A stretch of DNA of 64,000 nt from Syntrophorhabdaceae bacterium (GTDB lineage: Bacteria; Desulfobacterota; Syntrophorhabdia; Syntrophorhabdales; Syntrophorhabdaceae), in the NCBI GenBank assembly GCA_026415675.1, contig JAOAGQ010000011.1:1-64000 (forward strand), written 5' to 3'. How positions within the stretch are numbered: the stretch's first letter is position 1; the number at the start of each line of letters is the position of its first letter. Under the pieces are notes generated by a model. The model was not told the DNA's origin, ran no database searches, and saw only the letters and a program-made list of their open reading frames with translations. The translations under genes were made by a program, and so were the position numbers. Of the stretch, positions 53,965-58,778 are shown in pieces.

Positions 53965-55650
53965 ATGGGTGAGATAATAGGTTTGTTCGTATTTCTATTT
54001 CCGTTTATTATATCCTGGTTATTCACATCTTACATCATGTACAGGATAGGAAATAAATTCCAGATAGGCACTTTCGTTGAATATTTGATCCCCATCTATA
54101 ACCTGACTCTTATCTGCAGATGCGGCCGCATCTCAGAATGGAATGTCCTCGGTCTGCTTATACCGATTGTAAACCTCTATTTTATCATTCATATATGGGG
54201 CAGTGTTGCCCTTAGGCTTGGAAAAAATTACTGGGTTTACGGTGTAGGTAGCCTATTTTTGTGGATTACCGTATTGATCATGGCTTTCGATAAATCCCGT
54301 CCAGAAGGGTATATGTTGTCTGAAGACCTCGACAGAGGCAAGGTGGAAGAGATACCCCCTGAAACACCGGAAGAAGAGACAATACCCCTTACTTTCAAAA
54401 TGGGGGTGGCGAATGGAGGTTCAAAGATAGAAACACCGGAAGAACCCCCCCTTTCTATAGAGCCTTTAGAAAAGGGTAACCCCGTTCATGTTCCAGTGGA
54501 GGTTTTATCAGAAAAAGAAAAAGACAAGGAGGAGAAGAAGCAGAAAAAGAAGAGGGGGAAGGGTATGGGGATGAGTCTTTCCCTTGATTTTCTCACCCAC
54601 CTCGACATACTCTCAAAGATCGGCCTTAAGACGATAAATGAGCTGGTAGGGGTCGATATCGGAACAACATCGATAAAGGTTTGCGATTTAAAGAAGGCTA
54701 AAGACGGTTTTCATATGGTGAACCTCGTCAGGAAAGAATATGAGGAAGACCTCTTAAGTGACGGAATAATCATAGATACGACCTTTGTCGCAAATGAACT
54801 CAAAAATATTTTTCAGGAACATAAGATAAAGTGCAAAAACGTTGCATCGGCGCTGTCGAGTTACACGATTATCACCAAAAAGGTGGTTGTGCCCTTTCTT
54901 GAGGACGAAGAGCTTGAAAATACCATTCGCCTTGAGGTCGAATCCGTTATCCCCTTTCCCTTGAAAGATATCTATTACAGTTACCATATCATAGGTCCCG
55001 ACGAGGAGAAAGAAGGGATGATGGATGTCCAGTTGGTTGCCGCCAAAAAAGAGATTGTTGACGGTTATATGGAAGCTTTTAATATGGCCGGTCTATCCCT
55101 ACAGATTCTCGATGTTGATATCTTTGCCGTATCGAATATGGTAGAGCAGATATATAACCCGAGGGACTATTCTGTCGTTGTGGTGGACATAGGGGCATCG
55201 GTAACGAATATCGCCATCTTAAAGGGGGAATGGATAGAGTTTACAAGGGAGATACTTATCGGGGGAAAATACCTCACCAACCAGATCGAAAAGTCAACCC
55301 GGCTGAGTTACAGGGAGGCAGAGGAGAAAAAAGTCACAAACGACGGAGATGTATCCTATCTTTTTGAAGACTTTATCTTTAACATCACCTCAGAAATTAC
55401 AAAGACTATCAATTTCTATACCGCTACAAAACCGAACGATACGATAGGGAAGATATACCTTACGGGGGGTTCGTCCCTTCTTTTTGGGTTGAAGGAGAAG
55501 ATATACGAGGATACAAGGGTGGAGACAGAACTCATTACCCCTTTTATGCTTTTAAACCTCGATGATACGATGTTGAAGACATACGAGGACCTTAATGCTT
55601 TTATGACGGTGGCCCTCTATCTATCAACGAGAGTAACAGATTTAGGATAG
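53965..55650 (+). CDS. pilM: PilM with an N-terminal DUF5684-like membrane domain
   Basis: A 561-residue fusion. Residues 1 to about 110 form three or four membrane helices with the DUF5684 pattern: IPIYNLTLICR, then LLIPIVNLYFIIHIWGSVA, LRLGKNYW and a final FLWITVLIMAFDKS. A charged linker (about 110-215, with EKEKDKEEKKQKKKRGKG) leads to a complete PilM actin-like domain: GVDIGTTSIKVCDLKK, EVESVIPFPL, VVVDIGASVTNIAIL and YLTGGSSLLFG. PilM is normally a soluble cytoplasmic protein of about 350 residues that binds the PilN tail. Here it would be anchored directly in the inner membrane. It is followed by pilNOPQ. Confidence 0.88.
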   Translation: MGEIIGLFVFLFPFIISWLFTSYIMYRIGNKFQIGTFVEYLIPIYNLTLICRCGRISEWNVLGLLIPIVNLYFIIHIWGSVALRLGKNYWVYGVGSLFLWITVLIMAFDKSRPEGYMLSEDLDRGKVEEIPPETPEEETIPLTFKMGVANGGSKIETPEEPPLSIEPLEKGNPVHVPVEVLSEKEKDKEEKKQKKKRGKGMGMSLSLDFLTHLDILSKIGLKTINELVGVDIGTTSIKVCDLKKAKDGFHMVNLVRKEYEEDLLSDGIIIDTTFVANELKNIFQEHKIKCKNVASALSSYTIITKKVVVPFLEDEELENTIRLEVESVIPFPLKDIYYSYHIIGPDEEKEGMMDVQLVAAKKEIVDGYMEAFNMAGLSLQILDVDIFAVSNMVEQIYNPRDYSVVVVDIGASVTNIAILKGEWIEFTREILIGGKYLTNQIEKSTRLSYREAEEKKVTNDGDVSYLFEDFIFNITSEITKTINFYTATKPNDTIGKIYLTGGSSLLFGLKEKIYEDTRVETELITPFMLLNLDDTMLKTYEDLNAFMTVALYLSTRVTDLG

Positions 55651-55657
55651 CGAGAAA

Positions 55658-56191
55658 ATGATAAAGATCAACCTGTTACCAGGAAAGGCAAAAAAGGATT
55701 TCTTAAAATTGGATCTCTTCATCTTCTTCTTTATCATGTTTATCGCCTTGCTTACCGCAGGAGGCATCTATTACTTAAACGTGAAAGAGATAAACTCTTA
55801 TGAAAAAAGGATAGATGAGACAAAAAAACAGATTGCGAGTCTAAACAGCATATATAATGAATACCTTGCAATGGAGGCGGAGAAGAAGGAGATAAGAAGA
55901 AGGATAAAGGCGATAGATACCATAAAGGAGGGTAGGGGGCTCTCGGCGAGGATTCTATCCGATTTATCGGACACCGTAAAAGATAACGTATGGCTCAAAT
56001 ACTTTAAAAAGACCGAAAAGACCTTTGAGCTTTTGGGACATTCCCTTGAGAGTGAATCCATATCGAGTTTCGTGGAAGGCCTATCGAAGCTCCCCTATAT
56101 AAAAAACGTTGAATTGAAAAATGTGGAAAATACCGTTGAAGAAGGGGTTCAGATAAAAAGGTTTGCCGTCTACGGTGAGATATCGCTATGA
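55658..56191 (+). CDS. pilN: Type IV pilus inner-membrane alignment protein PilN
   Basis: A 177-residue bitopic protein starting with the PilM-binding motif MIKINLLPGKAK, followed by one membrane helix (about 22-42), a coiled-coil and a small periplasmic ferredoxin-like domain (NVWLKYFKKTEKTFELLG). The INLLP motif is the docking segment that lies in the PilM groove. It begins 7 bases after pilM and overlaps pilO by four bases (ATGA). Confidence 0.92.
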   Translation: MIKINLLPGKAKKDFLKLDLFIFFFIMFIALLTAGGIYYLNVKEINSYEKRIDETKKQIASLNSIYNEYLAMEAEKKEIRRRIKAIDTIKEGRGLSARILSDLSDTVKDNVWLKYFKKTEKTFELLGHSLESESISSFVEGLSKLPYIKNVELKNVENTVEEGVQIKRFAVYGEISL

Positions 56192-56802
56192 ACTTAAAGT
56201 TTGATATAAAACCCATCATAAAGAAGATCTCAAAGGTCAAAAGGCTTTACAAACTGCTCTTCAGCATAACCTTTAACCTTATCGTCTTCGGCCTTCTCTT
56301 CTATTTTCTCATCATCCCCCAGATCGATAAAAAACATAGTAAAATTGAAGAATACAATAAAGTTACCCAGGAACTGCAGAAAATGGTCTTTATCAAGAAC
56401 AACATGACAAAATTTCGTAACGAACATGAGGAACTGAAGGAGTTACTACAGAGGGTGCTAAAACAACTCCCTGAAACAAAGGATATACCCAATTTCTTAA
56501 GGAATATAGCGAACGTAAGTGCGGAATCGAGGGTGAAAATCACATATTTTGAACCAAAGGCCTTGCAACCTAAGGAGTTTTTTGCCGAGTTACCCTTTAC
56601 TGTCCGATTCAGTGGCCCCTACCATCATGTAGGTTATTTTTTTGACGGGATAAGAAGACTCGACAGGATCATAAATATCACGAGTTTCGATTTGAATATA
56701 GAGCCCAAATCACCCCCTGGGCAGGTGATCCTAAACGGCGAATGTACAGGAAAGACTTATGTTTACTTAAAGGAGCAACCGAAGGCACAACCAAAAAAAT
56801 GA
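56188..56802 (+). CDS. pilO: Type IV pilus inner-membrane alignment protein PilO
   Basis: A 204-residue bitopic protein: a cytoplasmic basic tail, a membrane helix at about 30-50 (NLIVFGLLFYFLIIP), a coiled-coil, and a periplasmic domain with PFTVRFSGPYHHVGYFFDGI, a good PilO signature. It forms heterodimers with PilN and links PilM to PilP. It is coupled to both neighbours by four-base overlaps. Confidence 0.92.
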   Translation: MNLKFDIKPIIKKISKVKRLYKLLFSITFNLIVFGLLFYFLIIPQIDKKHSKIEEYNKVTQELQKMVFIKNNMTKFRNEHEELKELLQRVLKQLPETKDIPNFLRNIANVSAESRVKITYFEPKALQPKEFFAELPFTVRFSGPYHHVGYFFDGIRRLDRIINITSFDLNIEPKSPPGQVILNGECTGKTYVYLKEQPKAQPKK

Positions 56803-57338
56803 TGGAGACTATGGAGAGGAGAGGGTTTTTCGATTTTCGATTTTTGTTATCAGATTTAAAGGTTATATTTTTATGTATCATCATTCTGACTGTTGCATAC
56901 GGCTGTCAGTTCGGTTTTTCTGCGGACCCCAAGGCTGAGCAGAAGAAGGTTGAGACGCAGGCCCCCCAGAAAGTGGAGACACCACCCAAATATAACGTAG
57001 ACGATTTTGTATACACCTCAGAGAATAGAAGAGACCCCTTTGAGCCTGTATATCTCTCAAAGGTAAAGAGGGGTTCTGTTAAACCGACAACCGTTGAAAA
57101 GCAGGTTGAAAAAAAGGGTTACGAGCTTGATGAGCTGAAGCTCACAGGGATTTTAAAGTCGGATAACGTGGCAATCGTTATGATGGAGGACCTCCAGGGC
57201 AGGGGGATAAACTTTAAAAAAGGGGATTATCTCAACCAGAACCTGTGGATTGTGGACATCAGAGAGGATAGGGTAGTTTTCGGATATAAACTAAAGGGCG
57301 AGATAAAAAACTTTGCCATAGACATCCCAAGAAAATAA
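56799..57338 (+). CDS. pilP: Type IV pilus assembly lipoprotein PilP
   Basis: About 179 residues. A hydrophobic segment ends AYGC, a slightly atypical lipobox (Ala rather than Leu/Val at -3). After a charged, Pro-rich linker the HR-type beta domain reads RRDPFEPVY, then LDELKLTGILKSDNVAIVMM and FKKGDYL. It bridges PilNO and the secretin. ATG 56799 overlaps the pilO stop (ATGATG); ATG 56802 is equally possible. Confidence 0.88.
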   Translation: MMETMERRGFFDFRFLLSDLKVIFLCIIILTVAYGCQFGFSADPKAEQKKVETQAPQKVETPPKYNVDDFVYTSENRRDPFEPVYLSKVKRGSVKPTTVEKQVEKKGYELDELKLTGILKSDNVAIVMMEDLQGRGINFKKGDYLNQNLWIVDIREDRVVFGYKLKGEIKNFAIDIPRK

Positions 57339-57350
57339 AAGGGGTTAAGT

Positions 57351-58778
57351 ATGAATAAAAAAATTTTCATCCTCCTTCTTTTAATCATCATGGTGCCTGG
57401 GTCCCTTTTTGGACAGGCCCCGAAAAAACAGATCTCCCGGGTATCCTTTGACTTCATAGATGCGGATATAAGGAACGTATTAAGACTCCTCACGGACATA
57501 GCGGGGAAGAATATCGTTATATCCGATGATGTGAAGGGCAAGGTGACGATGAAACTCGATAACATCACATGGGATGAGGCATTAAATGCGGTCATTAAAT
57601 CCTCGGACCTCATAAGGGTGGATGAAGAGAATATCATAAGGATTATCACGTTAAAGAAATTCGAAGAGGAACAGTTAAAGTTGAGTAAGAAGAAGGAAGA
57701 ATTGTTGAAAGAGAGACTCGAAAGACTAAAACAGGGGATCGACCTTGTCTCAAGGGAGATCCGTCTAAAATACGCAAATGCCGAAGAGGTAAGGAAGTGG
57801 ATAGTAGGGGAGACGGCGGCGTTGAGTCTGCCCGTTGTCCCGACCGGGGCACAGACAAGACCTGGTGTTCCGGCGGCAACCCCTGTAACAGGTGCGACAC
57901 CTGGTACAACGGTGCAGCAAAGGGGCCTTTTATCGGAATACGGAATTGTTACCGTAGTACCCTGGAACAACAGGGTGATTACCGTAAAGGATATTAAGGA
58001 GAACGTTGAGGAGATAGAGAGGAGGCTAAAGGCCCTCGATGTAGCCCCGGAGCAGGTACAGATCGAGGCAAGGATTGTAGATGCAAATACGGATTTTGTG
58101 AGAAACCTCGGGGTGAAATGGTCGGCAAGATTCAAGGCCACCATCAGTAATACGACGACGCCGGTTATAAGCGATAAAGATATCGCTGTATCCCCTTCTG
58201 TTACCGCCCCTGTGACATCCGCCATCGGTACCGTAGGCGTCCTGATAGGGAGTAGCGCAGACTCTAACTACCTGGAAGCGGAACTATCCGCTATGGAGAA
58301 AGAAGGTACAGGGAGAATCATAGCAAGCCCCAAAATCATCACATCCAACAACAGGGAAGCCCGTATTAACAAAGGATACGAGGTTCCATACCAGACATCA
58401 GGTATGTACGGAACAAATGTGGAATATAAGAAGGCGGAACTCGAATTGAGGGTAGTACCCCAGGTGATAGGGGATGAGATAAAGCTCGAGATAAGCGCAA
58501 AGAAGAACGAACCGGACTTTGCAGGGGGTACGCCTCCCCCCATCATCACAAGGGAGATAACTACGAAAGAGGTGATTATAAAGGACGGTGAGACCGTTGT
58601 GATAGGTGGGATTTACGACAAAACGGAGCAGGTTGCCCAGACAGGTGTGCCTTTCTTCAGAAACATCCCCTTTGTTGGGTGGCTCTTCAAAAGGGAAGAG
58701 AAGAGGGATGCAAAGGCAGAACTCTTGATCTTTGTAACCCCGAGAATCATAAAAAACCTATATAGAGAAGAGGGTTAA
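57351..58778 (+). CDS. pilQ: Type IV pilus secretin PilQ, short form
   Basis: A 475-residue outer-membrane secretin through which the pilus passes. A signal peptide (1-24, ending LFGQA) is followed by an STN/N0-like domain (FDFIDADIRNVLRLLTDIAGKN), an N1 domain (IRLKYANAEEVRKWIVG), a Thr/Pro/Gly-rich insertion, and the secretin gate and barrel (QIEARIVDANTDFVRNLGVKW, then VPFFRNIPFVGWLFK and LLIFVTPRI). The peptidoglycan-binding AMIN domains present in usual PilQ proteins (700 residues or more) are absent. The next gene starts directly at the stop codon. Confidence 0.93.
   Translation: MNKKIFILLLLIIMVPGSLFGQAPKKQISRVSFDFIDADIRNVLRLLTDIAGKNIVISDDVKGKVTMKLDNITWDEALNAVIKSSDLIRVDEENIIRIITLKKFEEEQLKLSKKKEELLKERLERLKQGIDLVSREIRLKYANAEEVRKWIVGETAALSLPVVPTGAQTRPGVPAATPVTGATPGTTVQQRGLLSEYGIVTVVPWNNRVITVKDIKENVEEIERRLKALDVAPEQVQIEARIVDANTDFVRNLGVKWSARFKATISNTTTPVISDKDIAVSPSVTAPVTSAIGTVGVLIGSSADSNYLEAELSAMEKEGTGRIIASPKIITSNNREARINKGYEVPYQTSGMYGTNVEYKKAELELRVVPQVIGDEIKLEISAKKNEPDFAGGTPPPIITREITTKEVIIKDGETVVIGGIYDKTEQVAQTGVPFFRNIPFVGWLFKREEKRDAKAELLIFVTPRIIKNLYREEG

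Follow-up and report, generated by a model that had tools for sequence, protein, structure and literature searches.

A family-restricted fusion of a DUF5684-type module to the pilus protein PilM with a plausible role in membrane tethering

Introduction

In the prevailing view, PilM reaches the type IV pilus machine only through PilN. The PilM protein of Thermus lacks a transmembrane segment and stays at the membrane through interaction with integral proteins; on co-expression with PilN, part of it was found in soluble form, and binding to PilN was required for it to stimulate the motor ATPase (PMC6325625). The EpsL protein has been described as a natural PilM–PilN fusion (PMC6325625).

The window analysed here, a 64,000-nucleotide stretch from a Syntrophorhabdaceae bacterium, encodes a PilM that is preceded, in the same reading frame, by a hydrophobic module of the DUF5684 type and a charged linker. 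In the literature searched (titles and abstracts), no fusion or anchor of PilM was described and no mention of DUF5684 was found.

Results

Reading frame and pil operon

The open reading frame (53965–55650, + strand) was composed of 561 residues, running from the ATG at 53965 to a stop codon ending at 55650 with no internal stop. It contained both a DUF5684 and a PilM domain above their curated cut-offs, so the single-frame fusion claimed in the original prediction was borne out. The features of the gene and of its neighbours are listed in Table 1.

Table 1. Coordinates of the fused pilM gene and the adjoining pil genes in the window.
Feature	Position	Strand	Basis
N-terminal membrane module, residues 1–110	53965..54294	+	PF18936 33.7 bits; AlphaFold2 helices; dN/dS 0.07–0.13
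CRCG (CxC motif), residues 51–54	54115..54126	+	invariant in module alignment A2
Charged disordered linker, residues ~116–221	54310..54627	+	AlphaFold2 pLDDT < 50; dN/dS 0.18–0.36
Possible internal translation start, GGGGGAAGGG then ATG 54565 and ATG 54571 (M201/M203)	54554..54573	+	anti-SD duplex −11.1 kcal/mol
Complete PilM domain, actin-like, DIGTTSIK motif	54649..55650	+	PF11104; TIGR01175; PDB PilM structures (sequence and fold)
pilN, N terminus MIKINLLP, one transmembrane helix	55658..56191	+	PF05137 47.9 bits
pilO	56188..56802	+	PF04350 109.8 bits
pilP	56742..57338	+	PF04351 41.5 bits
pilQ-type secretin	57351..58778	+	PF00263 150.4 bits

The PilM domain was complete, as had been proposed. 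PilM_2 (PF11104) matched residues 229–536 with 215 bits over profile positions 1–317 of 340, and the NCBIfam model TIGR01175 gave a full-length match (226.6 bits against a cut-off of 133; positions 4–339 of 348). A Foldseek search with the AlphaFold2 model returned the actin-like fold of PilM from M. xanthus, P. aeruginosa, and T. thermophilus as the best PDB matches (3jc8, 5eox, and 2ych, with TMt 0.64–0.83, and also 5eou). The protein ended after this domain, and the PilN-like periplasmic domain that characterizes GspL was not fused to it, PilN being encoded by a separate gene.

The gene belonged to a pilMNOPQ operon. PilN kept the INLLP docking motif, in agreement with the original prediction, and INLLP or VNLLP was retained in fused and unfused relatives alike. 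In the pilP frame, the first ATG of the listed ORF fell within pilO, and the true start is probably later. The fused gene and its neighbour were the sole PilM and the sole PilN of a genome that is 99% complete, which also encoded T2SSE-type ATPases and one PilC-type protein. The second PilM_2 match in the genome scored 28 bits in a 427-residue frame, which by its length and score is presumably FtsA.

Charged linker and possible internal start

The linker of about 100 residues (~116–221), already noted in the original prediction, was predicted to be disordered (AlphaFold2 pLDDT below 50), with an acidic first half and a Lys/Arg-rich end. The linker–PilM junction carried GGGGGAAGGGTATGGGGATGAGT, and the ATGs at 54565 and 54571 were both in frame. 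The gene might therefore give two products, a full-length PilM with its anchor and a soluble form started at these codons, which would form mixed rings or leave the anchored form as a minor regulatory isoform. The Shine–Dalgarno run GGGGGAAGGG was well spaced from the internal ATGs, its calculated duplex energy was −11.1 kcal/mol vs −4.4 kcal/mol at the annotated start, and its strength ranked in about the top 1% of the ATGs in the 30–64 kb region of the window. The internal ATGs also aligned with the start of the PilM proteins of G021 and G001, which are unfused. However, a comparable start was absent in G019 and G020, the closest fused relatives, and in most others, and the candidates at the junction of the g4 genomes were weak. 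The Shine–Dalgarno-like run doubles as coding sequence for the Lys/Arg/Gly end of the linker, and a single site of this kind would arise by chance fairly readily, given some 15 start codons in frame in the region. The starts of the neighbouring pil genes were as weak as the annotated one. Promoter-like sites in the region were no more frequent than expected by chance, and none lay on the + strand in the linker. Since the start is missing in these relatives and the pil starts nearby are as weak, a soluble second product is not a trait of the family, though it is possible in this species; the dual-product reading as a whole is unlikely. Comparison across the family nonetheless indicates that full-length translation is selected.

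The membrane module

A profile search located DUF5684 (PF18936) at residues 41–110 with 31.5–33.7 bits, exceeding the Pfam gathering cut-off of 27.4 and confirming the domain assignment first made from the sequence. In the AlphaFold2 model the module consisted of a long helix (residues 2–31), two broken helices (residues 37–53 and 58–84), and a helix pair (residues 89–108). Its pLDDT was mostly near 80 and lower around residues 50–70; the module folded separately gave a poor model with a pLDDT of 61. As the hydrophobic helices spanned residues 2–108, the protein departed from the solubility and lack of a transmembrane segment that are typical of PilM, properties that are no part of the family model.

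The fused module shared with other DUF5684 proteins (PF18936) the IPxYN motif, the proline-broken third helix, the GK turn, and the AFD-type end. Twelve of the 13 fused modules found in the family exceeded the PF18936 cut-off. Three signatures, CRCG, WNVLGL, and GSIAxRLGKSYW, were shared by the fused modules and missing from five other DUF5684 domains. Of the 13 fused modules, 12 retained the CRCG motif, a possible metal or redox site; its second cysteine was lost only in G025.

Unlike the PilM fusions, the other DUF5684 proteins seen were short and stand-alone, or were secreted or TPR proteins that ended in the module. In other families of the phylum (L063, L064, and L065), proteins with a C-terminal DUF5684 started with a helix resembling a signal peptide and continued through a 'VFLKDGSxxxCxSFW' domain into a stretch rich in Pro and Ala, an arrangement which suggests that the N side of the first DUF5684 helix is periplasmic in these proteins.

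Distribution of the fusion

The family sample contained 39 Syntrophorhabdaceae genomes, 26 of which had a PilM above 100 bits. A DUF5684 match was found in 13 of the 39 genomes, each time inside a frame of 533–567 residues together with PilM. The remaining PilMs comprised seven with a charged N-terminal linker without membrane helices, four with neither element, one partial, and one with another anchor. The fusion was retained in four genera. A sequencing or frame artefact was ruled out as its source by the 13 genomes that share the architecture.

Within the phylum, 14 of 395 genomes had a DUF5684 match, and fusions to PilM were confined to Syntrophorhabdaceae in the sample; sister families of the order had a plain PilM of 351–357 residues. 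No stand-alone DUF5684 gene adjoining pilM was found in the 395 genomes, and where a genome outside the family had both DUF5684 and PilM among the matches listed, the two were on separate contigs or were tens of kilobases from each other. The PilM matches considered extended to about E = 1e-75, so that other long PilM types among weaker matches may be missed, and the DUF5684 matches were complete. A general role of DUF5684 in type IV pilus machines, which the original prediction had raised, was not borne out by this distribution.

Several family members had the pilus operon without the DUF5684 module. The anchor is not essential in general, because the close relatives g12, G026, G021, G001, and G027 manage without it. 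A split-gene form was not seen: no separate DUF5684 gene was found upstream of the linker-only or plain PilMs, and their genomes had no DUF5684 match. The 492-residue PilM frame of G192 was rejected as an anchored form, having a soluble N-terminal extension and no N-terminal membrane helices. In g4 genomes (L044 and L046–L050), 330–410 nt preceding pilM contained no same-strand ORF of at least 80 residues, and no Rfam match to a riboswitch or known RNA was found in this gap.

Other membrane-associated PilM forms

The PilM of G004 (L036/L058), with 685 residues, carried an unrelated N-terminal domain with several helices, about 210 residues long, followed by a long charged linker. This domain had a weak DUF975 match (25 bits, below the cut-off of 34.8) and was also weakly UPF0259-like. 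The frame (L058:2921-4975, also in L036) is predicted to represent another type of PilM with a membrane anchor within the family. In the G004/G018 pair, the other anchor and its linker stood beside a linker-only form, a pattern also seen among the DUF5684 fusions and their relatives. The presence of an unrelated membrane domain in this position suggests that anchoring, and not DUF5684 as such, is the useful feature which the two forms have in common. Tentatively, PilM of this family may have been given covalent anchors repeatedly from unrelated sources (DUF5684; DUF975/UPF0259-like), each through a charged linker. Such anchors would keep the cytoplasmic ring bound to the membrane at all times, and would amount to an independently acquired counterpart of GspL that differs from it in topology.

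A second PilM-like protein was present as frames of about 540 residues in most family genomes (for example, L040:1483-3114 and L041:1483-3105). It had a transmembrane helix at about residue 340 and a tail with weak similarity to PilN, resembling a GspL-like natural PilM–PilN fusion. The window's own genome gave no match of this kind.

Selection on the module and history of the fusion

In eight species pairs, dN/dS was about 0.07–0.13 for the module, 0.18–0.36 for the linker, and 0.03–0.08 for PilM. By this measure the linker is constrained more weakly than the module. The low values of the module indicate that it is translated and useful, and together with the presence of the fusion in 13 separately assembled genomes they make chance or sequencing error very unlikely.

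The use of the module could lie elsewhere than in anchoring. As a sensor or partner-binding domain, with the CxC as a metal or redox site or with contacts to PilC or the PilN helix, it would regulate PilM, and its anchoring would be incidental. The evolution of the module was almost as slow as that of a functional domain, and CRCG was absent from the other DUF5684 domains compared, as would suit such a function. The loss of the second cysteine in G025, the unrelated membrane domain at the same position in G004, and the occurrence of DUF5684 elsewhere on unrelated proteins with no common pathway argue against a sensor, which is accordingly regarded as improbable.

The fused modules formed one clade against the five other DUF5684 domains (support 100/100). 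In the PilM tree, the fused forms fell into two groups, that of the window (g1 and g6) and a larger one (g4 and g9), the latter with linker-only g12 as its sister and linker-only G026 inside it. A clade of fused forms only was rejected (p-AU 6e-12), so that extra losses or transfers are needed, whereas a clade of all fused forms with their linker-only sisters g12 and G026 was not rejected (p-AU 0.19). The fusion probably happened once in the history of the family; the simplest account of these trees is one fusion, after which the membrane part was apparently lost at least twice and linker-only PilMs remained. Alternatively, the module may have been gained twice, with its transfer between lineages, or the linker may have come first.

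These apparent losses, in relatives that keep the operon, would suit a module that is only a neutral passenger, derived from a membrane-protein gene upstream of pilM and persisting in the fusion without function, yet module dN/dS below that of the linker in all eight pairs and retention in four genera make this very improbable.

Discussion

The fused gene encodes a genuine type IV pilus PilM, joined through a flexible linker of about 100 residues to a DUF5684-type module that would probably hold it at the membrane. The most likely consequence of the fusion would be tethering of PilM independently of PilN. The module is predicted to lie in the inner membrane, its C terminus facing the cytoplasm. 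Every PilM would then be held at the membrane, whether PilN is bound or not. PilM would still dock on the cytoplasmic INLLP peptide of PilN and couple PilB/PilT-type motors to PilN and PilO. Since the protein is the sole PilM beside a sole PilN that keeps its docking peptide, the fusion would add a tether and not replace docking. The tether would raise the local concentration of PilM, and assembly and re-assembly of the cytoplasmic ring could be freed from recruitment out of the cytosol, much as covalent PilM–PilN fusion does for GspL in type II secretion. The disordered linker has ample reach, so geometry would set no limit.

Positive charges flank all loops of the module, and the charge pattern does not decide its topology. 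As PilM must be cytoplasmic, the N terminus would lie inside with four crossings, or outside with the short helix (residues 37–53) not crossing. If the N terminus were outside and all four helices crossed fully, PilM would end up in the periplasm.

The fusion is a family-restricted variant architecture of a well-known protein, which the comparison of genomes indicates to be selected and for which a tethering role is plausible. With a natural, selected, covalently anchored PilM beside unanchored relatives and one differently anchored relative, it becomes testable whether working pili require PilM to leave the membrane. The DUF5684 module gains a first defined context, though no general role in pili.

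When compared with PilM of type IVa pili (TIGR01175/PF11104), the protein shares the complete actin-like domain, the nucleotide-binding DIGTTSIK motif, the pilMNOPQ operon, and the INLLP of PilN. Ordinary PilM has no transmembrane segment, whereas the fused PilM adds an N-terminal multi-helix module and the linker. FtsA is similar in being an actin-like ring or filament protein with its own membrane tether that docks on the cytoplasmic peptide of a bitopic partner; its tether, however, is a C-terminal amphipathic helix and not an integral multi-helix module. The nearest analogue is GspL/EpsL of type II secretion, in which a PilM-type actin-like domain is likewise held covalently at the inner membrane. 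GspL is a PilM–PilN fusion with one transmembrane helix C-terminal to the actin-like domain, followed by a periplasmic domain, whereas in the fused PilM the anchor is N-terminal and PilN remains separate and intact.
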